A stretch of 64,000 nucleotides of DNA from Epilithonimonas sp. JDS (GTDB lineage: Bacteria > Bacteroidota > Bacteroidia > Flavobacteriales > Weeksellaceae), in assembly GCF_021261315.1 (NCBI RefSeq), contig NZ_JAJSAX010000003.1:62001-126000 (forward strand), in the 5' to 3' direction. Within the stretch, counting starts at the first letter, position 1. The number at the start of each line of letters is the position of its first letter. Below the pieces are notes generated by a model. The model was not told the DNA's origin. It worked only from the letters and a program-made list of their open reading frames with translations, and made no database searches. The translations under genes were made by a program, and so were the position numbers. Positions 17,515-42,567 of the stretch are shown here, piece after piece.

Positions 17515-19980
17515 TTATTTAAGAATCACTTTAATATTTTTACCTGAATAAGCCACCGTTTTTTGCTGACCATCTGGAAGAATTATGGTAAAATTTCGGT
17601 TCTCAATCATTCCTTTATATTTTCCTTTTCGAGTGTCAATAGTTAGTGTATGGGATTTGTCATTCCAATGCATTGGTATTTCTGTAAAATCTCCTTTTTC
17701 ATAGTTATAATTGTCGAATTCATCTTCGTACAAAACAAAATCTGCATCTGAACCCGGATAAACTTTAATAGTAAGATTATCCCATTTTTTTTCTGTCGCA
17801 TACTGAACATCCGGACCGAAAGGAATAATGCTTCCACCTTTTACATACAATGGAATACTTTGGATATTGACTGTTTTTTCGATTTCCTGTCCGCCGTTGT
17901 GCTTTGCATTGGTCCAGTAATCATACCATATAGAACTGGACGGAAGATAGACTTTGACGGTTTTATTTTGTGTAAAATCTACATCAACAGCAGAAGGTCC
18001 TTTTTGAGTTTCCTCTTTTTTATCCCAACCGGTTTGTTCGTTGGTTTTCATTATTTTTTCAGGGGTATATTGCGCATTCAGTATGGGAGCAACTAGGAAG
18101 GATTTCCCAAACATATATTCATTATTGATGTCCCAAACTTTTTTATCTTCTGCAAAATCCATTGCCAACGCTCTCATAAAACTCGACTGGTTTTTAGAAA
18201 CGTCCCTAGAAACAGAATAAATATAAGGTAACATACTATATCTTAATCTGATGAATTTCTCAACAGCATCATACACTGGCTTTCCTTTTTTTCCGAATTG
18301 GTAAATCTCTCTAGGAACATCGGCTCCGTGCGAACGCATCATCGGCGTGAAGGTTCCGTATTGCAACCAACGGACATACAATTCCTGAAACATTGGATTT
18401 TTTGAACCTGAACTCTCGCTCCAGCCTTTTTTATACGTGCCGGCAAAGAAGCCGCCGATGTCAGAATTGAAATTAGGGTTTCCAGTAAGGCTAAAATTTA
18501 AACCAGCCGGAACCTGATTGCGCAAAGATTCCCAGGAAGAATTGACGTCGCCCGACCAAGTATTTGCGGCATATCTTTGTTGACCCGCAAATGCAGACCT
18601 TGTTAAAATAAAAACTCTTTTATCACTTGTCGTTGCTCGCTGATGGTCATAAACCCCACCAACAGTCATTAATGGATAAGCATTTCTTACTTTTCGGAAA
18701 GATCCCAAATAAGTTTTGGTATCCAAATCTTCAGGTTTCTGGCTAAGATGGTCAGGTTCTGTAGAATCCATCCACCAGGTGTCTACGCCAAGACTGAAAA
18801 CACCCTTGTTCAGATATTTCCAGTAAATGTCTCTGGCTTCGGGATTGTAGGCATCGTAAACACGCACGCCTGAAGGATAATTCATATCAGGAGGCCAGAC
18901 TTCTCTGCCAGATTCCGGCCAAGTACCAAAATTGAAAAGCATTCCTTTTTTGTCCATTTCACGATATTGATTCGTCATCGGTCCGAATGACGACCAGATG
19001 GAAACAGACAAATGCGCATTCATCCCGTGGATGTCATTGATCATTTTTTTGGCATCAGGAAAATCGGGACTGATAAAATCCATTGCATTCCACTGATAAT
19101 TATTTCCCCAATATTGCCAATCCTGAATGATTCCGTCCAAAGGAACTTTCAAATCACGGTATTTTTTTACGACATCTACAATTTCATTCTGACTTTTATA
19201 ACGTTCTTTGCTTTGCCAATAACCATACGTCCATAACGGAAACATCGGAACATTTCCGGTAAGGTCACGCATCTTGGCAACTACACCGTCTGCATTTCCG
19301 CCATACATAAAATAATAATCCACGCCTTCTCCCACTTCGGAAGCGAAAGATGTATTCTGAGGATTATCTGTAAACTGAGTTGGCGAATAATTATCCCAAA
19401 AAATGCCATAACCTTTTACAGACTGGAAAAAAGGCACGAAATCCCAGGTATTGTTCTGCACCATTCTGATGTCCTGATTGCGTTGGGATAATTTCCCGTT
19501 TTGAAGGATTCCCAAACCATAAATCGGTTCGTCTTTTTCCAACTGAAAAGATTGGGTTACAGAATAAGTTGGACTTCCGGCATCATTGAAAGGTTTGAAA
19601 CTACTTCCGCTTTCTTTAAGAAGTTCTTCTCCGGATGTTGTTGTATAAGCAATTTCTCCGTTTTTTATATTAACTGATAATTGTAAATCATTTGTTTTTA
19701 TTAATAAAATATCTTTATTTTCCGTAACAGAGAATTTTGTTTTTTGCTCTTGTTTGATAACAGAAAGGCTGTTTTTTACAAATGATTTCCTTGCAGGATA
19801 TTTGATGATTCTTACTGTATGCGGTCCGTAAAACTTTACTTCCACATTTGTATTCTCAGCAGAAAAACTCAACCCCGAATCCGTTTTTTTGTAGGATTGT
19901 GCGCTGATACTCTGCTCTGCTCCGGATATTATTACAATCGTAACAATAAAAGCTTTTATGTTTATTTTTCTGAAATTCAT
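17515..19980 (-). CDS. GH31 alpha-xylosidase/alpha-glucosidase-type enzyme without PA14
   Basis: 821 residues with signal peptide (MNFRKINIK to SISAQ). N-terminal beta-sandwich, (beta/alpha)8 barrel from about residue 235 and C-terminal beta-domains. The nucleophile is the Asp of WWMDSTEPDH; the acid/base is the Asp of TWSGDVNSSW. Unlike the GH31 at 11.3-13.8 kb it has no PA14 insert, and it carries an extra charged stretch (about 650-690) before VKVYLPSS. The barrel is related to alpha-xylosidases (FPLWTYGYWQSKERY block). Substrate is inferred from context: alpha-linked xylose or glucose on xylan-derived or xyloglucan-derived oligomers. Probably periplasmic, in the long operon. Confidence 0.86.
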   Translation of the reverse strand: MNFRKINIKAFIVTIVIISGAEQSISAQSYKKTDSGLSFSAENTNVEVKFYGPHTVRIIKYPARKSFVKNSLSVIKQEQKTKFSVTENKDILLIKTNDLQLSVNIKNGEIAYTTTSGEELLKESGSSFKPFNDAGSPTYSVTQSFQLEKDEPIYGLGILQNGKLSQRNQDIRMVQNNTWDFVPFFQSVKGYGIFWDNYSPTQFTDNPQNTSFASEVGEGVDYYFMYGGNADGVVAKMRDLTGNVPMFPLWTYGYWQSKERYKSQNEIVDVVKKYRDLKVPLDGIIQDWQYWGNNYQWNAMDFISPDFPDAKKMINDIHGMNAHLSVSIWSSFGPMTNQYREMDKKGMLFNFGTWPESGREVWPPDMNYPSGVRVYDAYNPEARDIYWKYLNKGVFSLGVDTWWMDSTEPDHLSQKPEDLDTKTYLGSFRKVRNAYPLMTVGGVYDHQRATTSDKRVFILTRSAFAGQQRYAANTWSGDVNSSWESLRNQVPAGLNFSLTGNPNFNSDIGGFFAGTYKKGWSESSGSKNPMFQELYVRWLQYGTFTPMMRSHGADVPREIYQFGKKGKPVYDAVEKFIRLRYSMLPYIYSVSRDVSKNQSSFMRALAMDFAEDKKVWDINNEYMFGKSFLVAPILNAQYTPEKIMKTNEQTGWDKKEETQKGPSAVDVDFTQNKTVKVYLPSSSIWYDYWTNAKHNGGQEIEKTVNIQSIPLYVKGGSIIPFGPDVQYATEKKWDNLTIKVYPGSDADFVLYEDEFDNYNYEKGDFTEIPMHWNDKSHTLTIDTRKGKYKGMIENRNFTIILPDGQQKTVAYSGKNIKVILK

Positions 19981-20041: not shown

Positions 20042-21976
<1,935 letters not shown>

Positions 21977-22065: not shown

Positions 22066-23685
22066 TTATTTTATAGTTAAAGAATCTGTAATTCTGAAAA
22101 AATCGACATCCACAAAACCTCCTGTGTTTTTCGTAGCATAATTAAAAATCGCAAATTTAGAACCCATAAATAACCTTCTGTAATCAAAAATCATTTTGTA
22201 ATCTTTCTCCATTTCTGTCCAGTTTTTCTGATCGGTACTGTAAGAAAAATCTGCTAAATCTTTTCCAAGATTGAAATCTGCTTCAATACGGAGGAAAATT
22301 TTATCTGATTTAATTTCGATACGTTTTTTTTCTTCTTTTTTCACTCCGGTAATCGCTTTCGTTTTATTATCCAAGCTTACTTCATTTGTTGAAAAAGTTA
22401 GAAATTTCTGGTTGCCTTCTTTTACAATTGATAACAATCCTGAATCGCCATTAAATGCACTGAATCCTGCAACATCACCGTCTTTCATTCCTTTCAAATC
22501 TAAGGCAACAACAGCACTGGATTTTGGACCTTCCATTCGTTGCGTTAAAGTATTCGGAGCAGAATAAATATTATCTACAACACGGCTCGTTCTCAGTCTC
22601 ATAAAACCTTTTCTGTCTGACAAAGACCAGGCTTCATTCATAGGATTATGGTTCCATTGCCATTGGATTTTTAATTTTTTATCTGAAAATTCATCACTTT
22701 CTACGATATTATTTTTCGGTTTAAACGGCGGAAGCGGAATTTCACCTTTTAAAGGAACTCTTCCATTGTCGCCCAAAACCGGCCAATCGTTTTCCCATTT
22801 CACAGGAATTAAAATCGGGACGCGCCCTACTCCGCCTCTGTCCTGAAAAATCAATGAATACCAATTTCCGTTTTTATCATCAATCAAAGCACCTTGCCCT
22901 GCGTAAGAAAATCCTAAAAAGTTGTCTTCCAGAATCACTTTTTTCTCATAAGGTCCGGTCACTTTATCTGCTCTGTAAACTTCCTGACGGCGTTTTCCAC
23001 CTCTTGGCCAGGAAATCATCATCATATAATATTTTCCGTTTCTTTTAATGATTTGATTGCCTTCCAAAAGTCCGGTTTCTGAGGAATCTTTTTCAAAAAC
23101 CACCGTTCCTTCAGGATTTCCGATGACTTCTTTAAAATCAGGACTTAATTCAAAAACTTTGTTGGAAGTGAAGACATAAACCCTGTCGTCATCATCAAAT
23201 AGCAACGATGCATCGTGAAAATGTCTGGTTCTTGTGATCAGTTTCCAGTTTTCTTTTTCGGGATTATCCGTTACATAGAAATAGGATTTGAAAGGCTCGT
23301 CATTCGGGGAAAACAAAACGTAATATTTCCCTTTGTGATATCGGATGGAAGATGCCCACTGTCCGCGACCGTAAACTGTTCCATTAAGCAAATCATATTT
23401 GGAATTGTCATTCAGTGTATTGAAAACATAACTTGCCATTTCCCAATGTACCAGGTCTTTGGAATGCATCACCGGAGCGCCCGGCATCAGGTGCATCGTG
23501 GTGCTTATGAGATAAAAATCATCACCGTTTCTGGTGACTGACAAATCCGGTGCATCTGCCCAAATAATGGGATTGGTAAATGATGTAGTCTGTTGTTTCT
23601 GAACAGGATTTACTTGAGCCGAAAGTAGATTCAGCCCGATAAATCCGTAAAAAGAAACTATATAAAATGGTTTATTAATTTTCAA
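22066..23685 (-). CDS. GH43 beta-xylosidase-type enzyme with C-terminal concanavalin-like domain
   Basis: 539 residues with signal peptide (MKINKPF to LLSAQ). Five-bladed propeller at about 35-330, with base Asp in WADAPDLSV, modulator Asp in FHDASLLF and acid Glu in GLLEGNQII. A beta-sandwich (GH43 C-terminal type, about 345-535) follows, ending in VDVDFFRIT. This architecture, seen also in the neighbouring GH43 gene, is typical of beta-xylosidases and arabinofuranosidases that trim short xylo-oligomers from the non-reducing end. Probably periplasmic. The 95-bp gap to the esterase gene is AT-rich with no feature seen. Confidence 0.88.
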   Translation of the reverse strand: MKINKPFYIVSFYGFIGLNLLSAQVNPVQKQQTTSFTNPIIWADAPDLSVTRNGDDFYLISTTMHLMPGAPVMHSKDLVHWEMASYVFNTLNDNSKYDLLNGTVYGRGQWASSIRYHKGKYYVLFSPNDEPFKSYFYVTDNPEKENWKLITRTRHFHDASLLFDDDDRVYVFTSNKVFELSPDFKEVIGNPEGTVVFEKDSSETGLLEGNQIIKRNGKYYMMMISWPRGGKRRQEVYRADKVTGPYEKKVILEDNFLGFSYAGQGALIDDKNGNWYSLIFQDRGGVGRVPILIPVKWENDWPVLGDNGRVPLKGEIPLPPFKPKNNIVESDEFSDKKLKIQWQWNHNPMNEAWSLSDRKGFMRLRTSRVVDNIYSAPNTLTQRMEGPKSSAVVALDLKGMKDGDVAGFSAFNGDSGLLSIVKEGNQKFLTFSTNEVSLDNKTKAITGVKKEEKKRIEIKSDKIFLRIEADFNLGKDLADFSYSTDQKNWTEMEKDYKMIFDYRRLFMGSKFAIFNYATKNTGGFVDVDFFRITDSLTIK

Positions 23686-23802: not shown

Positions 23803-25521
23803 TTAATTTGGTACAATATCGTTAGTCGATGTGCTGTATAAACCAATCAAACTTCCAGTGAATCCACCTGCAACATCTGTGGATAAAATGTCTCCGGAAA
23901 CCGGACCTCCAAGATTTTTGTAGGTTTTTCCATCTAAAGAGTAATTAAAATTAAGATCATCTTTTTCACCAACTACCTGTAATTTAATCGTTTTTGAAAG
24001 TGCAATTTTTTCACTGGCAATCAGTTTTGATTCTCCTTTTTCTGTTCTCTCCAAAACGATGTAAAAGTCTTTATCTTTTTTGGTAATTCCAAAAACGTAA
24101 TTGAATCTTTCGCTTTGATAACAGGTAATTCCGGCCAATTCTTTTTCAGATTTCGGTTTGAAATCCAGTGTTACGGAAGTTTCAAAATCTTCGTGCTGTA
24201 ATCTGTGAAATAATGCCGAGACAGGAGCTAAAGCTTTGATATTGGTTTCAAAAGGAGTTACCTTTACGCCGTTTTTGACAGTTGTAATGAAATTTTCACG
24301 AGGTCCCCGCATCGCAATCCAACGGTAATCCAGTTTTTTTTCGGTCAGTTTATCATTATACGTGAAGTTTCCATTCGGAAAAAATCCATTTTGTCCGGTT
24401 TGGTTTTTTACGCCTTCCGGTAATTTTAATTTTGGCTTCATTGGAACTAAACCGTTTTCAAAAACAGGATACTTTCCGCTCCAGTCTACAGGAAGAATGA
24501 AAGTTTCTCTTCCGTGATTCACACGTCCTTTTTCGTTGGGACGAATCGCCAGAAATACACCAAAATATTTTCCATCGGGAGTTTCCACCAGATCGGCGTG
24601 ACCTGCCCAATCCACTTTATCTTTTCTGTCTTTCGGGAAATAACGCTGCGTCAAAATCGGATTATTTTGTGCAGGAACAAACGGACCTTTCGGAGAATCT
24701 GACATAAAAATAACTTCGCTGTGATTACCGCCAGTTCCGCCTTCTGCGCACATCAGAAAATATTTTCCGTTCTTTTTGTACAAATGCGGACCTTCTATCC
24801 AGATTGGTTTTTGGGAAAGATCAACACCGCCGTTTACAATAATTTTATCTGAACCCGCAATAACCTGGTCTTTTTCCAAATCATAATCCCACATTTTGAT
24901 GACACGGTGACCATTGTACTTTTCAGTTCCTTTTGGCGGCGCATCATTATGAACAATATAGGCTTTACCATCATCATCAAAGAAAATTGAAGGGTCAATG
25001 CCGTCAAAATTGAGTTTCTGTACTTCGCTCCAGCCTTTTGCAGGGTCTTTGGTTTTCACGACCATATTTCCGATTCCACCAGCAATCTGTGTGGTGATCA
25101 TATAAAAAGTGTCGTTGAATTTGTTATATTTGATATCCGGTGCATAAATTCCTTGGGAAACACCGCCTTTTTCTACTTTAAGCTGAGAGGGTCTGTCGAG
25201 AACGTGACCAACCTGCTTCCAGTTGACCAAATCTTTAGACGTAAAAATCGGAATGCCAGGAAACATTGAAAATGAAGAATTGACCAAGTAATAATCGTCT
25301 CCTTTTCTGGTAATACTCGGATCCGGATAACAGCCCTGAAGAATCGGAGAGTAAAACTCGTTTTCTTTTAAGGGATTGTTGGTGTAGATTTTATCATTTC
25401 CACGATAGGAAAAGTCTGAGAAAGTCTGTGCTGAAATGCTACTTAAAGAAAGTAAAGAAACTGCTGTCACCAAAGTGAGTTTATTTCTTAAAAAAATCGA
25501 ATGCATTATTTTCTGTCTCAT
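23803..25521 (-). CDS. GH43 beta-xylosidase/arabinofuranosidase-type enzyme, two domains
   Basis: 572 residues with signal peptide (ending SSISAQ). Propeller with base Asp in CYPDPSI, modulator Asp in DGIDPSIFF and acid Glu in WIEGPHLY, followed by a C-terminal beta-sandwich from about residue 360. SQGIYAPDIKY is a typical second-blade block of GH43 enzymes that take xylo-oligomers. It differs from the next GH43 gene in catalytic blocks (DPSI versus APDL), so the two are not recent duplicates. Role inferred: hydrolysis of xylose or arabinose from xylan oligomers in the periplasm. It follows the GH95 gene by 19 bp. Confidence 0.88.
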   Translation of the reverse strand: MRQKIMHSIFLRNKLTLVTAVSLLSLSSISAQTFSDFSYRGNDKIYTNNPLKENEFYSPILQGCYPDPSITRKGDDYYLVNSSFSMFPGIPIFTSKDLVNWKQVGHVLDRPSQLKVEKGGVSQGIYAPDIKYNKFNDTFYMITTQIAGGIGNMVVKTKDPAKGWSEVQKLNFDGIDPSIFFDDDGKAYIVHNDAPPKGTEKYNGHRVIKMWDYDLEKDQVIAGSDKIIVNGGVDLSQKPIWIEGPHLYKKNGKYFLMCAEGGTGGNHSEVIFMSDSPKGPFVPAQNNPILTQRYFPKDRKDKVDWAGHADLVETPDGKYFGVFLAIRPNEKGRVNHGRETFILPVDWSGKYPVFENGLVPMKPKLKLPEGVKNQTGQNGFFPNGNFTYNDKLTEKKLDYRWIAMRGPRENFITTVKNGVKVTPFETNIKALAPVSALFHRLQHEDFETSVTLDFKPKSEKELAGITCYQSERFNYVFGITKKDKDFYIVLERTEKGESKLIASEKIALSKTIKLQVVGEKDDLNFNYSLDGKTYKNLGGPVSGDILSTDVAGGFTGSLIGLYSTSTNDIVPN

Positions 25522-25540: not shown

Positions 25541-28009
25541 TTATTTAATTTTTAATATATAAATTTTTCCTGCTTCTGTCGGAAAATCATAGATGAATCT
25601 TTCTTTCATTTTAACCTCATTCAATTTTGCTTCTGGCGATATCAAAGGCTTCTTAATAGTCGGAATTTCAAAATATGGATTTTGATTGTTTCCTGATGCC
25701 AATTTTAAGGTGTTTTTCTCTTTTAATTGCAACTCATTAGATGCACTGATTCTGCAGTTTCCACCCAGATTTGATTTGATGACAACTTCTGTAGCTTGAC
25801 TGTCTTTCCAAATGATACTGACTTCAAAACCGCCGTACGTTTTAAGTCCGGAAATATTTCCGTTTTCCCATTCGTCGGGAAGTGCAGGCAGAATATCAAT
25901 TCTTCCGTTTTGTGTCTGCAAAAGCATTTCGGTAATTCCGGAAGTACAGCCGAAATTTCCGTCGATCTGAAACGGAGGATGTGCATCAAACAAATTCGGG
26001 TAGGTTCCTCCATTTTTGTTCCAACCGTCTTTGTCTACCAATGTCAATTGATCTTTTATTAATTTGTTGGCGTGGTTTCCATCGAGTAATTTAGCCCAGA
26101 GATTGATTTTCCAGCCCATCGACCAGCCTGTGGAAACATCTCCACGGTGTAACAAAACGGTTTTTGAGGCATCAAAAAGTTCGGGTGTTGTGACAGGATT
26201 GATTTGATTTCCTGGAAACAAACCATATAAATGTGAAACGTGTCTGTGATTGTCTTCCGGATTGTCCCAGTCTTCCATCCATTCCTGCAATTGTCCGTAT
26301 CGTCCGATTTTCATCGGTGGTAATTTGGAAATGATCGTGTTCCAAACCGTAATTTTATCCGAATCTATATTTAAAATTTGTGCCGCTTTTTTTGTTTTGC
26401 TGAACAGGTCAAACATCAACTGATTATCCATCGTATTTCCCGCTGCCAAAGCACTTCCCTTGTTTCCCAGCGGAATATTTTCGGGAGACATCGACGGACT
26501 TGCAACCAGCCATTGGTGTGTAGGTTCTTCAATCAGGAAATCCTCATAGAACTGTGTCGCAGATTTCAGAATGGGATAAATGGATTTCAGATAATTTTTG
26601 TCTCCGCTGTACAGGTATTTTTCCCAAAGATGCTGTGAAAGCCAGGCACTTCCCATTGGCCATTGTCCAGCGTTGGCGAAATCAACTACGCCTGTAATTC
26701 TCCAGATGTCGGTGTTGTGGTGTGCCACCCAGCCACGGCTTTTGTACATTACTTTTGCCGTTTCTGCTCCGGTTACGCTCAAATCTTTGACCATCTGAAT
26801 CAAAGGCTCGTGCATTTCCGGCAGATTCGTTTTTTCGGCAGGCCAATAATTCATTTCCGTGTTGATGTTGATGGTGTATTTACTGTCCCAAGCCGGTTTG
26901 TTGGAGTTGTTCCAAATCCCTTGAAGATTAGCAGGCTGACCACCCGGTTGCGATGATGAAATCAGGAGATAACGACCAAACTGATAATATAATGAAACGA
27001 GCTCAGGATCGTAACTGGTGGCAAAATTCTTAACACGCAAATCCGTTGGAAATTGTGACGCAGGAGAAGTTCCGAGGTTGAAATCTACCCTTTTGAAATA
27101 ATTCTGGTAAGCGTTGAGATGATTCTTAAATAAAGTATTGAAATTTTTTGTTTCTGCTTGAGTAATGTAATTTTTGCTTTTTGAAACTTCGTCGGTATTC
27201 AAAGTTTTGTAGTCTATGAAGTTGGTGGCAATCGAAATCAGAATCATCACTTCATCTGCATTGGCAACCGAAATTCTCTCTTCTGAAACAGAAGTTTTTC
27301 CACCCTTAGCAATAAATTTAGCCAATGCATTGAATTTAACCTGGCCCTGAACGCCGTCTAATGTGGAAGAAAGCCCATCCATTTGCAAGGTATTGGCATC
27401 AATCGCTTTTACATTTTTTTTCAGTTCGCTGTTGAATCCGGCATTGAAATTCAGGGCATTTTTTTTGTCTGAACTTAGTTTTATCACAATTACCTGATCC
27501 GGGACTGAAGCGAAAACTTCTCTTTTATAATGACTTCCGTTGGAGGAAAATGTGGTCGTTGTTATTGCCTTTTCAATATCCAGCTCACGGTAATACTCTT
27601 TAATATCGATGAGATTATTAAAATCAAGATTCAAATCACCGATATTCTGAAACGCCGAACCGTGAAGTGTTTTTGCTGTCAAACCCTTATTGGAAAGGAT
27701 TTCGGCTCTTTTGTAATTTCCGTTAAAAAGGTAATACCGAATAGAATCCAGCACTTTGGGACCGTCAGGATTATCATTCCGGGAAGGGCCTCCCGACCAG
27801 AATGTGGCTTCATTCAGCTGAAGCTTTTCTTTTGAAGGGTCTCCAAAAACCATTGCCGCCAATCTTCCATTTCCAACAGGTAATGCTTCCACCCACTGTT
27901 TTGCGGGTTTGTCGTACCAAAGCTTGTATTTTCCTCCTTTCTGTGCAAGGGAAAATCCGCTCATGAAAATACAGATGATCACTATGCAATGTTTTAAGTT
28001 CATTTTCAC
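25541..28009 (-). CDS. GH95 enzyme, probable alpha-L-galactosidase
   Basis: 822 residues with signal peptide (to FSLAQ), an N-terminal beta-sandwich, an (alpha/alpha)6 barrel and a C-terminal beta-domain. Inverting GH95 residues are present: N381 and N383 in TININTEMNYW, E510 in SPSMSPEN and D683 in FQIDGNFG. In the bifidobacterial alpha-L-fucosidase AfcA a His sits two residues before the first Asn. Here that residue is Thr379, the change known from the L-galactose-specific GH95 of Bacteroides ovatus. Complex cereal xylan carries L-galactose linked to xylose on arabinose, which fits the locus. An alpha-L-fucosidase remains possible. First glycosidase gene after the transporter, 20 bp downstream. 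Confidence 0.88.
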   Translation of the reverse strand: MKMNLKHCIVIICIFMSGFSLAQKGGKYKLWYDKPAKQWVEALPVGNGRLAAMVFGDPSKEKLQLNEATFWSGGPSRNDNPDGPKVLDSIRYYLFNGNYKRAEILSNKGLTAKTLHGSAFQNIGDLNLDFNNLIDIKEYYRELDIEKAITTTTFSSNGSHYKREVFASVPDQVIVIKLSSDKKNALNFNAGFNSELKKNVKAIDANTLQMDGLSSTLDGVQGQVKFNALAKFIAKGGKTSVSEERISVANADEVMILISIATNFIDYKTLNTDEVSKSKNYITQAETKNFNTLFKNHLNAYQNYFKRVDFNLGTSPASQFPTDLRVKNFATSYDPELVSLYYQFGRYLLISSSQPGGQPANLQGIWNNSNKPAWDSKYTININTEMNYWPAEKTNLPEMHEPLIQMVKDLSVTGAETAKVMYKSRGWVAHHNTDIWRITGVVDFANAGQWPMGSAWLSQHLWEKYLYSGDKNYLKSIYPILKSATQFYEDFLIEEPTHQWLVASPSMSPENIPLGNKGSALAAGNTMDNQLMFDLFSKTKKAAQILNIDSDKITVWNTIISKLPPMKIGRYGQLQEWMEDWDNPEDNHRHVSHLYGLFPGNQINPVTTPELFDASKTVLLHRGDVSTGWSMGWKINLWAKLLDGNHANKLIKDQLTLVDKDGWNKNGGTYPNLFDAHPPFQIDGNFGCTSGITEMLLQTQNGRIDILPALPDEWENGNISGLKTYGGFEVSIIWKDSQATEVVIKSNLGGNCRISASNELQLKEKNTLKLASGNNQNPYFEIPTIKKPLISPEAKLNEVKMKERFIYDFPTEAGKIYILKIK

Positions 28010-28029: not shown

Positions 28030-29313
28030 TCAGATAGAAATTTGAGTTTTTTTCCTATTAATCAGCCAAATAATTCCCCAAGCTGCAACGTAAGAAACAC
28101 CGGCAATGAAAAATATGATATTGTATCCGCCGTTGATATTTCCTGCTTTTTTGAAGGTGTCCAAGACAATTCCGATAAAAAGTGGGAAAATAATTCCTGC
28201 TGCCGAACCCAGCATTCCGCCAAATCCGATAACCGAACTTACATAATTGTTAGGTAATTTATCGCCAACAGTGGTCATCAGATTCGCCCCCCAACCTTGA
28301 TGCGCCGCGGTTGCAAAAGCAATGATAATGGTAATCAGCCACATATTGTCAACATATTTTGAGAACATTACCGGAACAACCATCAAAGCAAACAAGAGCA
28401 TTGTTAAACTTCTGGCTCTTCCGATTGTCCAGCCTTTTTTAATTAAAAATGAGGAAAGATAACCACCGCCGATGCTTCCAATCGTAGTTCCGCTGTAAAT
28501 AATGATCAACGGAATGGAAGGCTTTGTCATATCCATTTTAAATACGTCTGAAAAATAAGCCGGCAGCCAGAACATAAAGAAATACCAAATCGGGTCGGTC
28601 AGAATTTTTCCGATGGCAAAAGACCAGGTGACTTTGTATTTTAATATTTCGGATAACGGAACTTTGGACTGCTCCTGCGTTTTTCCATCCTGGTCACTTT
28701 TGATGTATTCTAATTCTTCCTGACTTAATTTTTTAGTCTTTTCAGGAATGGTATAAAATCTCCACCAAAGGACAATCCACAATAAACCTAATGCTCCAAT
28801 CCAGACGAAAGTTTCTCTCCAGCCGTATTTCGCTAAAATAATAGGTACAAGGAGTGGCGCTAAAATAGCTCCCACCGTAGCTCCTGAATTGAAAATTCCG
28901 GTTGCCAAGGCTCTTTCTTTTTTAGGAAACCATTCGGCGACTGATTTTATCGCTGCGGGAAAATTTCCGGCTTCACTGATTCCGAGGGTACTTCTTGCAA
29001 TCAAAAATCCGACTGTGCTTTTTACAAAACCGTGTCCTATCGAAGCGAGACTCCAGACAATTAGGGAAACGGCGTAACCGATTTTGGTTCCTACCCTGTC
29101 GATAAATCTCCCCATCGCAAGATAACCAATCGCATAAGTCGTCGTAAATGCCATCACAATATAACTGTAATCTTTTTCGTCCCAGCTGAACTCTTTTTCA
29201 AGGACAGGTTTCAGCAAACCCATTACCTGGCGATCGAGATAATTGATCGTGGTAGCGAGGAACACCAATGACAGCATAAACCATCTGATATTATGATCTT
29301 TAGGAGCCTGCAT
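28030..29313 (-). CDS. exuT: MFS hexuronate transporter
   Basis: 427 residues, about 12 membrane segments, member of the anion:cation symporter branch of MFS. The first helix carries NYLDRQ, typical of the ACS/ExuT family, and the loop after helix 2 has FIDRVGTKIGY. A charged central loop lies near residues 195-215. It probably imports D-glucuronate across the inner membrane after GH115 frees it. The ATG directly follows the eda stop (TAGATG), and GH95 follows 20 bp downstream. Substrate is inferred from the uronate genes upstream. Other ACS-family anions cannot be excluded by sequence alone. Confidence 0.86.
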   Translation of the reverse strand: MQAPKDHNIRWFMLSLVFLATTINYLDRQVMGLLKPVLEKEFSWDEKDYSYIVMAFTTTYAIGYLAMGRFIDRVGTKIGYAVSLIVWSLASIGHGFVKSTVGFLIARSTLGISEAGNFPAAIKSVAEWFPKKERALATGIFNSGATVGAILAPLLVPIILAKYGWRETFVWIGALGLLWIVLWWRFYTIPEKTKKLSQEELEYIKSDQDGKTQEQSKVPLSEILKYKVTWSFAIGKILTDPIWYFFMFWLPAYFSDVFKMDMTKPSIPLIIIYSGTTIGSIGGGYLSSFLIKKGWTIGRARSLTMLLFALMVVPVMFSKYVDNMWLITIIIAFATAAHQGWGANLMTTVGDKLPNNYVSSVIGFGGMLGSAAGIIFPLFIGIVLDTFKKAGNINGGYNIIFFIAGVSYVAAWGIIWLINRKKTQISI

Positions 29314-29949
29314 CTAGTTTTGATTAAGTTGTTTTAATAAATTCTGAACTTTCTCAGTCAGCTGTTCTGCCTTCAAGTCTGTTTTGATGAGCGAACTTCC
29401 CAATCCGACAGCGATTGCACCACCTTTGAGCCATTCTGTAATATCTTCAACATCAGCATTGATTCCTCCGGTCGGCATAAAATGCATTCCCGGAAAAACA
29501 GGCTGAATGGATTTGATATAATTTTTGCCTAAAGCATCTGCCGGGAAAATCTTTACTAAACGAAGTCCGTTTTGAAAAGCCAGATTGACATCAGAAGGCG
29601 TGAAACAGCCGGGAATCAAATTGATGTTTTTTGCGACAGCGTGCTTTACGAGCTCTTCGCTGATGACCGGTGTAATGATAAAATCTGCTTTTGCATCGTT
29701 ATAATCATACATTTCCTTTATATTTTTTACCGTTCCGATTCCTAATAAAAGTTCCGGAAATTCGGTAGCAGAGATTTCTTTTAATTTGGTAAAATTCTCC
29801 AATGCCTGAGTTCCACGGTTAGTGTATTCTATTACACGGATTCCTCCGTCGTACAAAGCTTTTACGGTATTTTTTGAAACTGCAAACGATTCATTGTAAA
29901 ACAAGGGAACGATTTTCTGGTCATTTATTATCTGTAGTATTACATTCAT
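29314..29949 (-). CDS. eda: 2-keto-3-deoxy-6-phosphogluconate aldolase
   Basis: 211 residues, class I aldolase. K133 in LVKIFPADAL is the Schiff-base lysine, and E41 in RVIEYTNRG matches the general acid/base. Splits KDPG into pyruvate and glyceraldehyde 3-phosphate, the last step of glucuronate breakdown. Cytoplasmic. The start overlaps the kdgK stop by 4 bp (ATGA) and the stop abuts the transporter start, so translation is probably coupled through three genes. Family length is normal. Confidence 0.95.
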   Translation of the reverse strand: MNVILQIINDQKIVPLFYNESFAVSKNTVKALYDGGIRVIEYTNRGTQALENFTKLKEISATEFPELLLGIGTVKNIKEMYDYNDAKADFIITPVISEELVKHAVAKNINLIPGCFTPSDVNLAFQNGLRLVKIFPADALGKNYIKSIQPVFPGMHFMPTGGINADVEDITEWLKGGAIAVGLGSSLIKTDLKAEQLTEKVQNLLKQLNQN

Positions 29950-30953
29950 AATTCTTCAATATTAATAGATTCATCTATCGTATTACCTATAACAAAAAGC
30001 TTTTTGAATGCGACTTTTGTAGCATCTTTTAGAATCTGTTGTGAGGCATGTCCTTTCAAAGTTCCGTGAATCAAGGCTGCCATAAAGGAATCGCCGCTTC
30101 CCACTCTTTCCTCAATTTTGTCTGAGTGATATTTCTGCGAAACCAAAAGCTTCTCGTCAGCAAATAAAGTCGCATAGTAATTAATTTGCTCAGCGCTCGT
30201 GAAACGAAAGGTATTGGCAATCATTTCCACATTCGGAAAAATCGACTGAATTTCCAAAGCTGATTTTTCTGCCTGTTTCAAAAGATTTTTATCATTAAAA
30301 CTTCCATTTAGTTCGTATTCTATCGGAATATTCAAAAACTGTTGGATTGACCAGATATTTCCCATCAGAACATTCACGAAAGGCATCAGATTCTTAATTT
30401 TTTTTGAAGGATTTTTGCCCTGCCAAAGCGCTGCGCGATAATTTAAATCGAGGGAAACCGTAATGTTTTTTGACGCTGCTTCTTTCATTAAATCCAGACA
30501 TTTCTGATAAGCATTTTCACTTAATGCTGGTGTGATTGTACTGATGTGAAGCCATCTTACTTTTGAAAATATTTCGTCAAAACTGAAGGTGCTAAAATCC
30601 GATTCTGTGAAAACCGATGGAAAACGGTCGTAAACCACCGCAGCATTCTGCATATCGCTGTCCGAAGACAGGTAAAAAGTTCCGATTCTACCGTTGTTTT
30701 TCTCTGCAATAATTTCGATTCCTTTATTTTTGAGTTGAGATTCTAATTGACTTCCTACAAAATTTTCCGGCAAAGCTGAAAGGAATTTCACAGGATTGTT
30801 CCATTGTGCAAGCGCAGAAGCCACGTTGTACTCTGCACCGCCTACGAAAATTTTCAGAGACTGCTCATTGAGCCAGTTTCCTTCGGAATCCGGAGCGAAA
30901 TGCAAAAGCAATTCTCCGAAACATAATATTTTATTGGAAAATGAATCTTGCAT
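29946..30953 (-). CDS. kdgK: 2-keto-3-deoxygluconate kinase (PfkB family)
   Basis: 335 residues when started at the ATG at 30953 (MQDSFSNKILCFGELL), 4 bp after the uxaC stop; the open frame upstream lies inside uxaC and was not used. PfkB-type sugar kinase: N-terminal GELLLHF, GGAEYNVA sugar-binding block, SLDLNYRAALW, and C-terminal VGSGDSFMAALI with the catalytic Asp. It phosphorylates KDG to KDPG. The position between uxaC and eda makes KDG kinase more likely than other PfkB sugars. Cytoplasmic. Confidence 0.92.
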   Translation of the reverse strand: MQDSFSNKILCFGELLLHFAPDSEGNWLNEQSLKIFVGGAEYNVASALAQWNNPVKFLSALPENFVGSQLESQLKNKGIEIIAEKNNGRIGTFYLSSDSDMQNAAVVYDRFPSVFTESDFSTFSFDEIFSKVRWLHISTITPALSENAYQKCLDLMKEAASKNITVSLDLNYRAALWQGKNPSKKIKNLMPFVNVLMGNIWSIQQFLNIPIEYELNGSFNDKNLLKQAEKSALEIQSIFPNVEMIANTFRFTSAEQINYYATLFADEKLLVSQKYHSDKIEERVGSGDSFMAALIHGTLKGHASQQILKDATKVAFKKLFVIGNTIDESINIEEL

Positions 30954-30957
30954 TGTA

Positions 30958-32376
30958 TTAAATTTCAAAATAATTTTTCGTGTTGTGATAACAGATGTCC
31001 TCGATAATTTTACCAACCCATTCTTCGTCATTAGGAAGAAAGCCCCTTTCCATCTCACTGCCGAACATATTGCATAAAAGTCTTCTGAAATAATCGTGTC
31101 TTGAAAACGACAGAAGACTTCGGGAATCAGTTAGCATTCCGACGAATGTGCTGATGAGACCGATATTGGAAAGTGTATTCATCTGCTTTTTCATTCCGTC
31201 TAATTGGTCGAGAAACCACCACGCTGCACCAAACTGTACTTTAGATTTAATTCCGCCTTCATTGAAATTCCCGGCAAGTGTCGCTAAAACTTCATTAAAA
31301 GTGGGATTAAGGTTATAAATAATGGTTTTGGTAAGTTGTCCGGCAGAATTCAGTTCGTCCAAAAGAACGCTCATTCTTTGTGCAAAATATTGTTCGCTGA
31401 TAGCATCATAACCTGAGTTAATTCCAATTTTATTAAGCATTTCAGAATTATTATTTCTGGTTGCTCCCACGTGAAACTGCTGAACCCAGCCTTTTTCAGC
31501 GTACATTTTGCAAAGTTCTTTCAGCAGATAGCCGCACAAGGCTTCCGGATTTGGGAATGTCGGATTATTTCCTTTTAAAAATTCAGAAAATTCGGTTTCT
31601 AATTTAAGATTCCATTTTGTGGTATCAGGAAAATATTCAAACCCGTGGTCTGCGACTTTAGCTCCGATTTCTGCGAAATAATTAATTCTGGACTCAAGTG
31701 CATTTAATAAATCAGAAACTGACTGAATTGAAATTCCGCAAACATTCTCAAGCTTTTTAATGCTCAAAAGATATTGCTCCGGATTGATGATATTGATGTA
31801 AGAATCTGGGCGGAAAGCCGGTAGAACCTGAGTTTTAAAACCGCTATTTTTTAGTGCTTTATGATAAGCTAAATCATCAGCGGGGTCGTCTGTTGTGCAA
31901 AGTGCTTCTACTTTGAAATTTTGAATAATGGCTTGTGGTAAAAAGTCCGAAGTCTGCAAACTTTCATTCATCTGATGATAAATGGAATCTGCATTTTTCG
32001 GAGAAAGATATTCTTTGATTCCAAAAGGATTTTTCAGTTCCAGATGTGTCCAGTGAAATAAGGGATTACGAAGCGTATACGGTACAACTTCTGCCCATTT
32101 TTTGAACTTTTCCAAGTCTGATGCTTTGCCTGAAATGCATTGCTCATCAATCCCAAAATTCCTCATTGCTCTCCATTTGTAATGGTCGCCATCCAGCCAA
32201 ATTGCTGTTGGAGAAAGGAAATTCTGATTATTTGAAATAACATCCGGTTCCAAATGATTATGATAATCAATAATCAGCATTTCTTTCGCGTAACCGAAAT
32301 AGAGATTTTCTGCCTTTGCCGATTCCAGCAAAAATGATTCTCCGAAAACTTCTTTATTGCTGATGGGATGATTCAT
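30958..32376 (-). CDS. uxaC: glucuronate isomerase
   Basis: 472 residues, full family length. Opening block IIDYHNHLEPD carries the metal-binding histidines of the amidohydrolase-like fold. Further UxaC blocks are HWTHLELKNPFG, CTTDDPADDL, QFHVGATRNNN and the C-terminal FSRHDYFRRLL. It converts D-glucuronate to D-fructuronate in the cytoplasm, the entry step for the sugar released by GH115. It is preceded by a 114-bp gap with a terminator-like hairpin and followed closely by kdgK. Confidence 0.96.
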   Translation of the reverse strand: MNHPISNKEVFGESFLLESAKAENLYFGYAKEMLIIDYHNHLEPDVISNNQNFLSPTAIWLDGDHYKWRAMRNFGIDEQCISGKASDLEKFKKWAEVVPYTLRNPLFHWTHLELKNPFGIKEYLSPKNADSIYHQMNESLQTSDFLPQAIIQNFKVEALCTTDDPADDLAYHKALKNSGFKTQVLPAFRPDSYINIINPEQYLLSIKKLENVCGISIQSVSDLLNALESRINYFAEIGAKVADHGFEYFPDTTKWNLKLETEFSEFLKGNNPTFPNPEALCGYLLKELCKMYAEKGWVQQFHVGATRNNNSEMLNKIGINSGYDAISEQYFAQRMSVLLDELNSAGQLTKTIIYNLNPTFNEVLATLAGNFNEGGIKSKVQFGAAWWFLDQLDGMKKQMNTLSNIGLISTFVGMLTDSRSLLSFSRHDYFRRLLCNMFGSEMERGFLPNDEEWVGKIIEDICYHNTKNYFEI

Positions 32377-32418
32377 TTTTAAATTTAAAATTGATTTTGA
32401 TTTTTGAGAAAAATCTTT

Positions 32419-32461
32419 AAAAACAAGACCTTAACTGAGTGAGAAAATCATTAAGGCCTTG
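32419..32461 (-). terminator. intrinsic terminator or attenuator between the SDR gene and uxaC
   Basis: Stem 32424-32434 with 32451-32461 pairs at 10 of 11 positions. Read on the minus strand it is followed by TTTTTAAAGATTTTT. It lies about 30 bp past the SDR stop and 43 bp before the uxaC start, so it may stop part of the transcripts. No clear new promoter box was seen before uxaC. Confidence 0.65.
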
Positions 32462-32490
32462 CTTACTATAAGAAGAAAATAATACTCATA

Positions 32491-33306
32491 TTAAACACCA
32501 CTGAATGCGCTGAAACCACCATCGATAGGCAATAAAGCACCCGTGATAAAACTTGCGGCATCCGAACAGAGAAACAGTACAGCTCCATTTAGTTCTTCTA
32601 CTTCTCCGAATCTTTGCATTGGTGTTTTAGCAATCACTTTTTTGCTTCTGTCAGTTAAAGAACCATCAGGATTCAATAGAATTGCACGGTTTTGGTCTCC
32701 GATAAAAAATCCCGGAGCAATTGCATTGACACGGATTTTATCGCCAAATTTCAATGCTACATCCGAAGCCAGCCATTGGGTAAAATTGGTAATTGCAGAT
32801 TTTGCCGCTGAATAACCAGCCACTCTTGTGATTGCAGAATAAGCTGCCATTGAGGAAATATTCACGATACTTCCGCTGCCTTGATCTGCCATTACTTTCC
32901 CGAAAACATAGCTTGGATAGACGGTTCCGTTGATATTAAGATTCGTTACCTCATCCCATCCGTTCATATTCATATCGAAAAAAGACTGGTCTGGAGACAA
33001 TGTTGCGGAAAGAATATTTCCTCCGGCAATGTTGAGCAGAATATCAATTTTGCCATATTTTTCGAGAATTTTTTTTGAAGCAGATTCAAGACTTTCCACA
33101 TCCATTACATCGGCTTCCACAGCGAATGCATCACCACCCGATTCTATTAGTTCTTTCACACGAGCATCCAGAGTTTCCTGATTTCTTCCAAGGGCGACAA
33201 CTTTTGCTCCGGCTTCGATGAAACTTTTAGCCAGACTTCCGCCCAACACACCGGAAGCTCCTGTAATGACTGCTACTTTATCTTTTATGCTGAATATTTC
33301 GTTCAT
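32491..33306 (-). CDS. uxuB: SDR-family D-mannonate oxidoreductase (fructuronate reductase)
   Basis: 271 residues. Classical short-chain dehydrogenase: cofactor loop TGASGVLGGSLA, NIAGG, catalytic Ser in NISSMAAY, YSAAK with Tyr and Lys four apart, and C-terminal DGGFSAFSGV. It probably reduces D-fructuronate to D-mannonate. The best-known UxuB is a long-chain polyol dehydrogenase of about 480 residues; here the step is taken by an unrelated SDR, as in several Bacillus, Thermotoga and Bacteroidota pathways. Function rests on its place between uxuA and uxaC. Confidence 0.87.
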   Translation of the reverse strand: MNEIFSIKDKVAVITGASGVLGGSLAKSFIEAGAKVVALGRNQETLDARVKELIESGGDAFAVEADVMDVESLESASKKILEKYGKIDILLNIAGGNILSATLSPDQSFFDMNMNGWDEVTNLNINGTVYPSYVFGKVMADQGSGSIVNISSMAAYSAITRVAGYSAAKSAITNFTQWLASDVALKFGDKIRVNAIAPGFFIGDQNRAILLNPDGSLTDRSKKVIAKTPMQRFGEVEELNGAVLFLCSDAASFITGALLPIDGGFSAFSGV

Positions 33307-33412
33307 TTTTTTATGATTGATAATGATGATTGATAGGATTTCATCCTATTTTTCTTTCTTTCACAGAGCTTCACCCTATTCTATTGATTGTGCCACTTCG
33401 TGGCTTATTTCT

Positions 33413-34585
33413 TTAAGATTTTAAATCACTTTGTACTGCAGCTATCACCCCTTCGATTTGTCCTAAAGCAAGCATTCTTCCTAAAAATGAATAGCCTGGA
33501 TTGTAATCCTTGTCAATATCATCCGTCAAAAGTCTGCCGTGATCCACACGCATTGGTAAATCCGGGTTTTCTTTTTCAAAGATTTTGATTACTTCGATTA
33601 ATTTTCCTCTTCCACCCAAATGATGAGCTTCGATAAAATCGCCGTTTTCAAAAACATTGGTACTTCTTAAATGAACAAATTTTGTGCGGTGGGCATATTT
33701 TTGGGCAAGTTTCGGAACATCATTTTGGAGACCAGCACTTAAAGAACCGGTGCAGAATGTGAGTCCGTTTTGTGGATTATCGACAGCGTTTAAGAGCCAA
33801 TCGATATCTTCTTCTTTGGTGACGATTCTTGGTAAGCCTAATAATGAAAACGGCGGATCATCGGGATGTACACACATCTGGATTTTCCACTTTTCGCAGA
33901 CAGGCATTATCTTTTCGAGAAAATATTTCATATTCTGACGGAGCTGATCTTTATCAATTCCATCATACAATGCTAATAGATTTTTGAATAATTGAACCGG
34001 ATTTTTGTCGCCTTCCTTGATGTTTCCGTTAACAAAACCTTGCGTTTTTACAATGATAGAATCAATCAGATCATTATTATCTTCTTCTGTTAAAGTATTT
34101 TTTAGTTGCTCTACTTTTTGAAGAATGTCTGAATTATAATCGTTTTCCGCACCTTTTCTTTGCAGAATATGAATTTCAAAATAAGCAAATTTGACTTTAT
34201 CAAAGTACAATGACGACGAGCCGTCTTCCCACTGATAAAACAAATCTGTACGAGCCCAATCAAGAACCGGCATAAAATTGTAACAAACCGTTGTTACGCC
34301 CGCCTTACCCAGATTTTCAAGACTCTTGATGTAATTTTCTATTAATTGATCTCTGTTTCCTCCTCCATATTTGATAGACTCACTAACAGCAAGACTCTCA
34401 ACTACAGACCAGCGAAGACCAAAACTTTCTATATAATCTTTATAATTATTGATCGCGTCTAATGACCAAACTTCCCCGTTCGGAATATCGTGTAGTGCAG
34501 AAACAATACCTTCTACTCCAATTTGTCGAAGCATATTTAGTTTAATTTTATCATTCTTCCCAAACCAACGCCATGTTTTTTCCAT
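33413..34585 (-). CDS. uxuA: mannonate dehydratase
   Basis: 390 residues, TIM-barrel dehydratase. Start MEKTWRWFGKNDKI is typical of UxuA. Other blocks: GVEGIVSALHDIPNGEVW, CVHPDDPPFSLLGLPRI, GLTFCTGSL, HLRST and MRVDHGRLL. It converts D-mannonate to 2-keto-3-deoxy-D-gluconate. Cytoplasmic, metal-dependent. It is the first enzyme gene after susD, from which it is separated by a strong hairpin. The gap to the SDR gene (106 bp) shows no clear signal. Confidence 0.96.
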   Translation of the reverse strand: MEKTWRWFGKNDKIKLNMLRQIGVEGIVSALHDIPNGEVWSLDAINNYKDYIESFGLRWSVVESLAVSESIKYGGGNRDQLIENYIKSLENLGKAGVTTVCYNFMPVLDWARTDLFYQWEDGSSSLYFDKVKFAYFEIHILQRKGAENDYNSDILQKVEQLKNTLTEEDNNDLIDSIIVKTQGFVNGNIKEGDKNPVQLFKNLLALYDGIDKDQLRQNMKYFLEKIMPVCEKWKIQMCVHPDDPPFSLLGLPRIVTKEEDIDWLLNAVDNPQNGLTFCTGSLSAGLQNDVPKLAQKYAHRTKFVHLRSTNVFENGDFIEAHHLGGRGKLIEVIKIFEKENPDLPMRVDHGRLLTDDIDKDYNPGYSFLGRMLALGQIEGVIAAVQSDLKS

Positions 34586-34672: not shown

Positions 34673-36619
34673 TTAGTAACCAGGGTTTTGATATTTGGCT
34701 TTAACTTCAGCCGAAACCTCCATTGCATTTAACTGACTTGTAGGAATAGGTCTTAAATAATGGAATTTCTGAATATTACGAGTGACAGTTTGTGGCGTAT
34801 GGTCTCCGTATGAAACTCCACCAATCTGATATGTAGCAGCAACTTCTCCCCATTTCTGCGTTCGAACCAAATCATACCATCTGTAAAATTCTCCATAGTA
34901 TTCTCTGGAACGCTCGGCCAGGATATAATCGATTGTAATTGTCGCAGGTGTAGCTGCAACCATTGCTGCGCTGTTATCCTGAATTTTTGTAACATTTCCA
35001 TTATTATCAAACCTCCATTTTCCTGCTCTTGCACGAATAACGTTAATAAGATCTCTGGCGCTTGTAGCCCCGGTTGCACCTTTCACAGCAGCCTCTGCCG
35101 CTATAAAATAAAATTCAGAAAACTTTGCCACATTGAATGGGCGCGTTAGTCCTGCATTTGGTGTTCCCAGCCCAGCACCATTATCTGTTCTGTACGTTCC
35201 TATTTTCCAAAGACCTGGATACACCATTCTGCTTATGCCATTTGGTGCTATCACATAATCGGCTCTACCAGGAAGAGTACCTGCTCCTACACCGTTTGCT
35301 CCTGCTCCCGAAGGATAAGACGGCAGTTGGGAATCATCGTCTAAGAATGATAAAATAGCACCATCCGGCTGTACAGGGAGATTATTGGCATTATACAGAA
35401 CCGGGTTTGTTACGCCTGCCCGATTCCAGTTTCCGCGATATGTGGTAACAAAAGTTCCATCGTAACGTGAATCATTGGTTTTATCTGCGAAGGTATTTCT
35501 AATGATTGCAATCGGCGGTGCCATACGAACCCAAGGACGCCCTAATGGCTGAGTAGCTGCACGCTGCACAGAATTGACAATGTCGTTTGGTCCCCAAGCG
35601 GTAGTTTTGCTACTTTTAATAGCTGTGTAGTTCCATGTTTGCATCCAGGCGGCAAAATTATCCGGAGACCATGCCGCTCCCAGGCCAGCTGGGTCACCTT
35701 CATTATAATAAGCACTAGACTGTGTATGATCTGCATAAAGCATACACTCATTATTTCTGTCATTCGCACCCAGATTTACATCATAAAATGTTGGCTGAAG
35801 TGCGTACGGACTTGGGTTGGCAATTCCTGCCATCGCAATGTCGTAAGCTTGCTGAAAGTACCATTGAGCTGTATGACCATCAAGATCCGTACGTGGCGCT
35901 TCCGGATATGTTGGGATATTATTTGGATTTTGAAGCCACCATCCATAGGTAAGATAAGCTTTAGCTAAAAATAATCTTGCCACGTTTTTTGTGACACCTC
36001 CAGTGACTCTTGGTGATACCGGAAGATTGTCTATTGCTTTTTTTAGATCTGGGAAAATAGCCTTACTGTAAACTTCCGGAACGGTATTTCTGACAGAAGT
36101 TGCAGAGGCCGTAATATTGAAAGCCAGTGGCCCTGATCCCAAATCTAACGGTACACCACCATAAGTCTGTACCAAGATAAAATAATCGAATGCGCGGAAA
36201 AATCTGGCTTCAGAAACTAAAGATTCTGCAATCCCGAAGTTTGGACCTTTTTCGATGATCCCATTAGCAGTATTAATGTAAGGAAAGACAGAGTTCCAAA
36301 TCATACTGGTAGGGAAAGTATCAGGATTAATATTCCCGTTTCCAGACATATCCAATTCCTTGAAATTTCCGTCGGCACTCTGTCCAAAAGTAGCCTCATC
36401 TGTGCCTGCCTGGCAGTTGCTCATGAAATAGCCATTTCCATATAACGAACGCAGATGTCTATATAATGAAGTGATTCCCTGGTTAACACCTTGCTCTGTA
36501 TTAAAATATTCAACAGTATAGTTTGCTCTAGGTTCTTCATCCAGGATTTCATTACATCCTGTGAATGTTAGTGATAAAAAGATGGCTCCTAATATCACTT
36601 TTTTGTTATGTTTTATCAT
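34673..36619 (-). CDS. susD: SusD/RagB-family glycan-binding lipoprotein
   Basis: 648 residues. Signal peptide II with lipobox TFTGC followed by an acidic stretch (NEILDEEP), as in surface-exposed Bacteroidota lipoproteins. The N-terminal SusD block (YTVEYFNTEQGVNQG), TPR-like helices (EARFFRAFDYFILVQTYGG) and the C-terminal RagB part (IDYILAERSREYYGEFYRW, HYLRPIPTSQLNA) are all present. It forms the lid of the SusC pore and binds xylan oligomers outside the cell. Somewhat longer than many family members. It starts 12 bp after susC. Confidence 0.95.
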   Translation of the reverse strand: MIKHNKKVILGAIFLSLTFTGCNEILDEEPRANYTVEYFNTEQGVNQGITSLYRHLRSLYGNGYFMSNCQAGTDEATFGQSADGNFKELDMSGNGNINPDTFPTSMIWNSVFPYINTANGIIEKGPNFGIAESLVSEARFFRAFDYFILVQTYGGVPLDLGSGPLAFNITASATSVRNTVPEVYSKAIFPDLKKAIDNLPVSPRVTGGVTKNVARLFLAKAYLTYGWWLQNPNNIPTYPEAPRTDLDGHTAQWYFQQAYDIAMAGIANPSPYALQPTFYDVNLGANDRNNECMLYADHTQSSAYYNEGDPAGLGAAWSPDNFAAWMQTWNYTAIKSSKTTAWGPNDIVNSVQRAATQPLGRPWVRMAPPIAIIRNTFADKTNDSRYDGTFVTTYRGNWNRAGVTNPVLYNANNLPVQPDGAILSFLDDDSQLPSYPSGAGANGVGAGTLPGRADYVIAPNGISRMVYPGLWKIGTYRTDNGAGLGTPNAGLTRPFNVAKFSEFYFIAAEAAVKGATGATSARDLINVIRARAGKWRFDNNGNVTKIQDNSAAMVAATPATITIDYILAERSREYYGEFYRWYDLVRTQKWGEVAATYQIGGVSYGDHTPQTVTRNIQKFHYLRPIPTSQLNAMEVSAEVKAKYQNPGY

Positions 36620-36631
36620 TACTTTGTTATT

Positions 36632-40957: not shown

Positions 40958-41064
40958 ATTTATTTAATTTTATTTTTAATTGTCATTCATTTTTGATGTA
41001 GAATTCCTTCCCTACCGATGTTTTATACCAGTAAGTCTGTAGTAAATTCCGTTATGATTTTTGA

Positions 41065-42549: not shown

Positions 42550-42567
42550 ATTATTAAGAAGCTTATT

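Follow-up and report, generated by a model that had tools for sequence, protein, structure and literature searches.

A probable alpha-L-galactosidase of family GH95 in a xylan locus of Epilithonimonas sp. JDS

The GH95 enzyme and its closest known relatives

The digestibility of corn-type xylan is lowered in part by its L-galactose caps, for whose removal few enzymes have been characterised. The closest known enzyme is BACOVA_03438 (PDB 4UFC), the alpha-L-galactosidase of PUL-XylL (BACOVA_03417-03450), a polysaccharide utilisation locus (PUL) of Bacteroides ovatus and gut system for complex xylan (PMC4491172). This enzyme does not cleave 4-nitrophenyl-alpha-L-galactopyranoside, and AfcA likewise does not cleave the corresponding aryl fucoside (PMC4491172). 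Two further GH95 alpha-L-galactosidases, alpha-L-Galp_687 and alpha-L-Galp_697 of the corn-fibre degrader LL1355, are likened here by description, not by sequence (PMC7176698). The same family comprises XacAfc95 (PDB 7KMQ), a Xanthomonas alpha-1,2-L-fucosidase for xyloglucan (PMC8245568). Here, we describe a GH95 enzyme encoded in a stretch of 64,000 nucleotides of Epilithonimonas sp. JDS (NZ_JAJSAX010000003.1, positions 62,001-126,000), which as a whole is called the window. Altogether, it is assumed with a probability of roughly 0.75 that this enzyme is an inverting alpha-L-galactosidase and the first to act on L-galactose-capped side chains of glucuronoarabinoxylan.

The gene is located on the minus strand (25541-28009) and comprises a complete open reading frame (ORF) of 822 amino acids counted from a GTG codon, with a signal-peptide-like N-terminus and no type IX secretion tail. 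A start at the ATG two codons further on (GTG AAA ATG) is just as plausible; all residue numbers given here are counted from the GTG, and counted from the ATG T379, N381 and N383 would become T377, N379 and N381. All three GH95 domains of Pfam (N-terminal, catalytic and C-terminal) scored above the cut-off, with 595.8 bits for Glyco_hydro_95_cat, and 4UFC was matched by phmmer with 823.5 bits. The active-site set is present with N381, N383, E510 and the conserved Asp D683. In the phmmer alignment, T379 corresponds to Thr370 of BACOVA_03438, N381 and N383 to Asn372 and Asn374, and E510 to Glu501, the roles of these B. ovatus residues being taken from PMC4491172. The respective codons on the minus strand are found at 26873-26875 for Thr379 (base positions computed from the ORF start), at 26861-26869 for the stretch from Asn381 to Asn383, whose outer two residues form the catalytic-base pair, and at 26480-26482 for the general acid Glu510. 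Furthermore, 'WDSKYTININTEMNYWPAE' of the window GH95 matches BACOVA_03438 letter for letter.

An AlphaFold2 model of the enzyme, with a mean predicted local distance difference test score (pLDDT) of 84.7, showed 4ufc as the nearest structure (Z 45.4, root-mean-square deviation 1.8 over 774 residues), followed by the Xanthomonas fucosidase 7kmq (Z 42.6), and Z values of 34.5-34.8 for FucOB and AfcA. Since the pLDDT lies below 50 at the model residues 373-377 (374-378 in GTG numbering), directly before Thr379, the geometry of the pocket is not argued from the model. Altogether, the enzyme and BACOVA_03438 comprise the same family, fold and Thr/Asn/Asn/Glu active site, a Phe in the +1 loop, and a complex-xylan locus with GH31, GH97, GH115 and GH43, at an identity of 47%. 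XacAfc95 likewise shares family, fold, the Thr and its surrounding residues, but differs in its +1 loop ('IDGAQWS'), in its xyloglucan locus and by an identity of 45%.

Counterparts in PUL-XylL and the predicted substrate

The window locus is a xylan, arabinose and glucuronate system. As the B. ovatus reference, a genome from the Bacteroides draw was used in which the GH95 matches the 4UFC row at 100% identity, and 80 kb around this gene were fetched. The BACOVA_ locus tags are given by the family order in PMC4491172, not read from annotation. Eleven of 27 locus proteins compared (24 encoded in the window and three just beyond it) found a reciprocal best hit in these 80 kb, ten of them enzymes, and ten of the eleven lie in the window and one beside it. 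Four of the hits, all on the minus strand, are counterparts of genes in named positions: a GH43 with a C-terminal ConA-like domain (23803-25521, 67.7%, BACOVA_03421), a GH31 alpha-xylosidase (17515-19980, 64.4% over 804 amino acids, BACOVA_03422), a GH97 (6497-8440, 50.9%, BACOVA_03423) and a GH43-CBM6 (16056-17447, 58.7%, BACOVA_03424). The others are a GH3 outside the window (50%), a further GH43-CBM6 (9836-11260, minus, 54.7%), a double esterase of the feruloyl/acetyl type (20042-21970, minus, 38.0%), a GH115 alpha-glucuronidase (3787-6315, minus, 47.3%), a GH30 with a type IX secretion tail (261-3065, minus, 30.8%), the GH95 itself and SusC (28%). The run GH3-GH43-GH31-GH97-GH43-CBM6 equals the family order of BACOVA_03419/03421/03422/03423/03424 as given in PMC4491172, and the B. 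ovatus counterpart of the GH31 adjoins GH97. For BACOVA_03422, the activity on corn xylan is reported to exceed that on a xyloglucan oligosaccharide about 3,000-fold (PMC4491172), and the window locus shows the make-up of a complex-xylan PUL with an alpha-xylosidase of this corn-xylan type. Unlike PUL-XylL, it holds a NUDIX/AraR-type regulator and built-in genes for the catabolism of glucuronate and xylose, its gene order differs outside short runs, and neither GH98 nor a hybrid two-component regulator was found among the window proteins scanned with Pfam (34 of the 40 ORFs of at least 150 amino acids, plus two shorter ones). With this locus, relatives of Epilithonimonas and Chryseobacterium seem to have their own counterpart of the gut system for complex xylan.

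The block GH95-GH43-GH43-esterase-GH31 is kept in Epilithonimonas arachidiradicis, Chryseobacterium sp. SSA4.19 and Cloacibacterium rupense (L007, L008, L009), and in eight of nine further loci fetched from the same genus or family; in the ninth (G134) the GH31 was missing there. GH95 was found in 9 of the 23 genomes of the genus, the own genome included. Among 20 of the other 22 genomes, seven hold both GH95 and GH31, one only GH95, none only GH31, and twelve neither.

The breakdown could run as follows. Fragments of glucuronoarabinoxylan would be made by GH30 and GH10 and imported by SusCD. The GH95 would then remove terminal L-galactose by inversion, probably in the periplasm, whereupon the uncapped side chains would be open to the removal of xylose by the GH31 at 17515-19980 and, after this, of arabinose by the GH43 arabinofuranosidases. 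Glucuronic acid would be removed by GH115, and neighbouring genes would provide for the catabolism of xylose, arabinose and glucuronate. Synergy data obtained with corn-fibre oligosaccharides support the idea that the terminal sugars have to be removed first, and the arabinofuranosidases of LL1355 work well only together with the GH95 alpha-L-galactosidases and an alpha-xylosidase (PMC7176698). Two GH31 alpha-xylosidases had been named in the original prediction for this step. The one at 17515-19980 can be upheld by its counterpart, whereas the second (11260-13842, minus) is alpha-xylosidase-like by its sequence matches only.

Another possible substrate is xyloglucan, on whose side chains the enzyme would act as an alpha-1,2-L-fucosidase like XacAfc95. 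Two GH5-type (PF00150) matches in the genome point in this direction, and the PDB matches of the one that was compared include GH5_4 and xyloglucan-specific endoglucanases. Against this, GH5_4 homologues are reported to be absent from the related genus Chryseobacterium (PMC11892949), although this genome has a GH5_4-like match. Furthermore, no homologue of GH31 or GH95 was found within the 20 kb surrounding the GH5 gene that was compared, no GH74, GH5, GH9, GH35 or GH2 was found among the scanned window proteins, and the GH31 nearby corresponds to a gene that occupies the place of an alpha-xylosidase specific for xylan. A fucosidase of this kind is considered unlikely. Fucose_iso_N1 found no match in the genome, which lends weak support to the assignment as alpha-L-galactosidase.

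Thr379 and the +1 loop around Phe444

The original prediction was based on a Thr two residues before the pair Asn381/Asn383. This Thr379 was confirmed in the ORF translation, and the alignment with the B. ovatus enzyme places Thr and no other residue at the site. The rule attached to it, namely that GH95 fucosidases carry His and L-galactosidases Thr at this position, is not supported, as XacAfc95 and Blon_2335 are fucosidases with Thr (PMC8245568, PMC10063614). XacAfc95, which besides the Thr shares the identical 'SKYTININTEMNYWP' stretch with the window GH95 and in this respect speaks for a fucosidase, is fucose-specific, and its exchange T395H left the preference unchanged (PMC8245568, PMC10063614). 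The exchange T370H in BACOVA_03438 abolished the activity on corn xylan and led to no gain of fucosidase activity; the authors were themselves cautious about the Thr and pointed to the +1 subsite (PMC4491172).

The distribution of the residue leads to the same result. Thr was found in all 82 rows of a near set, which consists of the window GH95, the second GH95 of the organism and the best 80 loci and was chosen via conserved patterns. In an even draw across the phylum, the 23 aligned GH95 loci (own two included) showed Thr in 18 and His in 5 cases. All collected GH95 amount to 185 string-distinct sequences, among which some genes occur twice with different starts; here, Thr was found in 168, His in 16 and a gap in one. 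The Thr is common to GH95s of pectin-type, rhamnogalacturonan-II (RG-II)-type and xylan-type loci. With 168 of 185 sequences and a proven fucosidase carrying it, the Thr signature was rejected as evidence of L-galactosidase activity, and the Thr/His rule should not serve for the annotation of GH95. For the predicted removal of L-galactose from cereal xylan this means that the argument from Thr fails, while the gene neighbourhood and the shared +1 loop support it. The enzyme would thus be an ordinary and well-founded addition to the xylan alpha-L-galactosidases that was reached by a wrong argument, and the loop is the observation most worth a specialist's time.

Thr379 alone is unlikely to determine the specificity. 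The better candidate determinant is the +1 loop around Phe444 (codon 26678-26680, minus; 'VVDFANAG'). By alignment, Phe444 corresponds to Phe435 of BACOVA_03438, which PMC10063614 locates on the side of the leaving group and compares with Trp453 of FucOB and Trp500 of AfcA; within the literature passages covered, this structural remark is all that was seen on Phe435. A Phe435-type residue in the +1 loop, a criterion proposed in this analysis and not an established one, is thus found as F444. Aligned over the loop, the window GH95 reads 'VVDFANAGQW', BACOVA_03438 'VVDFAAAGMW', XacAfc95 'PIDGAQWSLW' and the second GH95 of the organism 'VVDGGFYGMW', so that the loop differs from that of XacAfc95 and argues against the fucosidase. 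The pattern 'VDFA.AG' is common to the window GH95, BACOVA_03438 and the 73-100% relatives of the latter (L205-L212). The 60-70% relatives of BACOVA_03438 that were read (L213-L229, L157, L164) comprise no Phe in the loop; L218 has Tyr. Among the 168 Thr-bearing sequences, the column shows Phe in 29 and Gly in 80 cases.

Further copies of the Phe loop were found in B. ovatus (L239, 56% to BACOVA_03438), beside GH43, GH31, GH2 and GH29, and in another genome (L254), beside GH31, GH3, GH43-CBM6 and GH97. In total, a GH31 homologue was present in the fetched stretch of 14 of 20 loci with Phe compared to 8 of 91 others (Fisher p 3.6e-8, with 111 of 112 loci read). This value overstates the evidence, because 11 of these 14 loci come from the clade of the window GH95 itself. 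Moreover, the fetched stretches are not of equal length, and B. ovatus was counted as without GH31, its GH31 counterpart being located about 33 kb from its GH95. In one locus (L075), neither a GH31 nor a xylan neighbour was seen in the stretch despite the Phe loop, which speaks against a clean rule. Due to the close kinship of the 11 loci, L075 and the distribution of GH31 in Bacteroides, the Phe loop was rejected as a clean marker of GH31.

In a careful tree of 46 rows, the Phe loop cannot be explained by fewer than three changes, be they gains or losses, and the starred branches force three. It is tentatively proposed that the leaving-group side sets the L-galactose specificity, and that the Phe loop ('DFA..G') arose more than once, mostly in loci for alpha-xylose-bearing xylan, and predicts xylan alpha-L-galactosidases. 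This proposal is rather doubtful, since the changes may be losses and since the lineage of L075 shows no xylan neighbours. If true, the Phe loop would replace the Thr rule for predicting such enzymes from sequence, and it offers a testable alternative.

A dual or relaxed activity, by which the enzyme would trim fucose as well as L-galactose, could be expected from the fact that the two sugars differ only at C6 and that both kinds of enzymes have nearly identical -1 pockets (PMC4491172). Some GH95s are indeed relaxed (PMC10154630). BACOVA_03438, however, showed only trace fucosidase activity (PMC4491172), and a dual activity of the window GH95 is regarded as very improbable.

Kinship, gene order and further observations

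Over the residues 330-700, the window GH95 is 62.0% identical to 4UFC, 53.8% to XacAfc95, 63.1% to the second GH95 of the organism and 63.7% to the GH95 of an RG-II-type locus (L049). These values do not separate the candidate functions, and sequence identity fails as a discriminator between them. The second GH95, a paralogue encoded on contig C21, is 52% identical to the window GH95 and also has the Thr. The scanned proteins around it include no SusCD and form no carbohydrate locus. Some kb from it (L003, 5610-11474), genes of the histidine methyltransferase, EgtB, OpuA and PatB types were found, an unusual neighbourhood for a GH95.

The 80 relative loci, fetched by similarity, fell into three groups in a quick FastTree, on which the following tally of contexts rests. 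Members of the first group often occur beside genes for pectin methylesterase and GH28. In the RG-II-type group (25 loci), a BT_1020-like propeller was found in 14, an apiosidase in 9 and GH78 in 19 loci. The group holding the window (41 loci), whose members often occur beside esterase, GH43 and GH3 genes, showed the esterase in 18, GH43-CBM6 in 15 and GH78 in none.

This tally bears on the question whether the enzyme could be an alpha-L-galactosidase for another substrate, either RG-II or a sulfated algal polysaccharide. BT1010 releases L-galactose from RG-II (PMC10154630), the GH95 of the RG-II-type locus L049 is as close as stated above, and one subgroup of GH95 adjoins sulfatases. Against this, the three RG-II markers are absent from all 41 loci of the window's group, as judged by sequence clustering, by which distant homologues may be missed, and neither a sulfatase nor GH78 was found among the scanned window proteins. 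Such a substrate is considered improbable. The subgroup adjoining sulfatases carries the active-site motif 'WKSAYT' (L020, L039, L042, L061, L072) and stems mostly from marine-named organisms; all but L061 are near sulfatases, and these may be enzymes for sulfated polysaccharides. Among pectin-type loci (L047, L066, L067, L073, L076, L080, L081, L085), pectin methylesterase was found in eight of eight and GH28 in seven of eight.

Several observations weigh against the assignment as a xylan alpha-L-galactosidase. The loop of the general acid differs and is longer in the window GH95 ('SPENIPLGNKGSALAAGNTMD') than in BACOVA_03438 ('SPEHGPITAGCTMD'). Over the aligned length, the identity to 4UFC is only 47.0% for the window GH95 compared to 50.8% for the paralogue. 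In the careful tree, the window clade (seven rows) and the BACOVA_03438 family (nine rows), each with support of 100/100, are not placed together; the deep nodes are weak, and the latter family is placed, with poor support, nearer to the group of the paralogue. The FastTree group joining the window GH95 and BACOVA_03438 was not confirmed, and due to the weak deep nodes and the nearer paralogue, the kinship to BACOVA_03438 is not itself evidence. Furthermore, of the nine genomes in which BACOVA_03438 has a 73-100% relative, three (G502, G466, G506) yielded no GH31 match at E 1e-150, and Bacteroides genomes with its non-Phe relatives do hold GH31. GH31 is thus neither confined to nor constant with the Phe form, which indicates that GH31 is not bound to this GH95 in Bacteroides. 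Finally, no complete catabolic route for L-galactose was identified, only the lower D-tagaturonate/altronate steps, which also serve galacturonate. The galacturonate-type cluster in question holds a mannitol-dehydrogenase-type (tagaturonate reductase-like) gene and an altronate dehydratase gene, which could serve the lower steps of the L-galactose route described in PMC12632266. An L-galactose dehydrogenase was not identified, the P. vulgatus genes sought as query not having been recognised.

Read leftward from the regulator, with all genes on the minus strand, the locus begins with the NUDIX/AraR-type regulator, a xylulokinase-like kinase and a xylose isomerase (39629-43293), followed by SusC and SusD (34673-39550) and by the glucuronate catabolic genes for UxuA, a mannonate oxidoreductase, UxaC, KdgK and Eda (29314-34585), all assigned by the domain scan. 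As listed, the KdgK ORF (29946-31058) overlaps UxaC (30958-32376) by about 100 bases, and its GTG start is probably too early. An MFS transporter of the hexuronate/galactonate type (28030-29313, matches below the curated cut-offs) precedes the GH95, after which the GH43 described above and a second GH43 with a C-terminal ConA-like domain (22066-23685, by Pfam; 50% identical to a gene truncated where L234 begins) lead to the double esterase, the GH31 and the GH43-CBM6 at 16056-17447. Next are a GH27-like gene with NPCBM (13871-15877, domain scan), the second GH31, two GH43-CBM6 (the one at 9836-11260 and another at 8447-9832, domain scan), GH97, GH115 and GH30. GH3, GH51 and L-arabinose catabolic genes are located just outside the window, and the only GH10 match in the genome is found some 22 kb ahead of it, past the GH51, GH3 and AraA genes.

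Several GH95 ORFs from Bacteroides (L213-L217, L219, L220, L222, L223) comprise about 1080-1600 amino acids compared to the usual 820, which suggests an extra fused domain. Elsewhere in the window, ORF fragments in more than one frame (44063-45122, minus), one of them with a type IX secretion tail, apparently represent a decayed gene, and an intact protein with GEVED and a type IX tail is encoded at 52663-54297.

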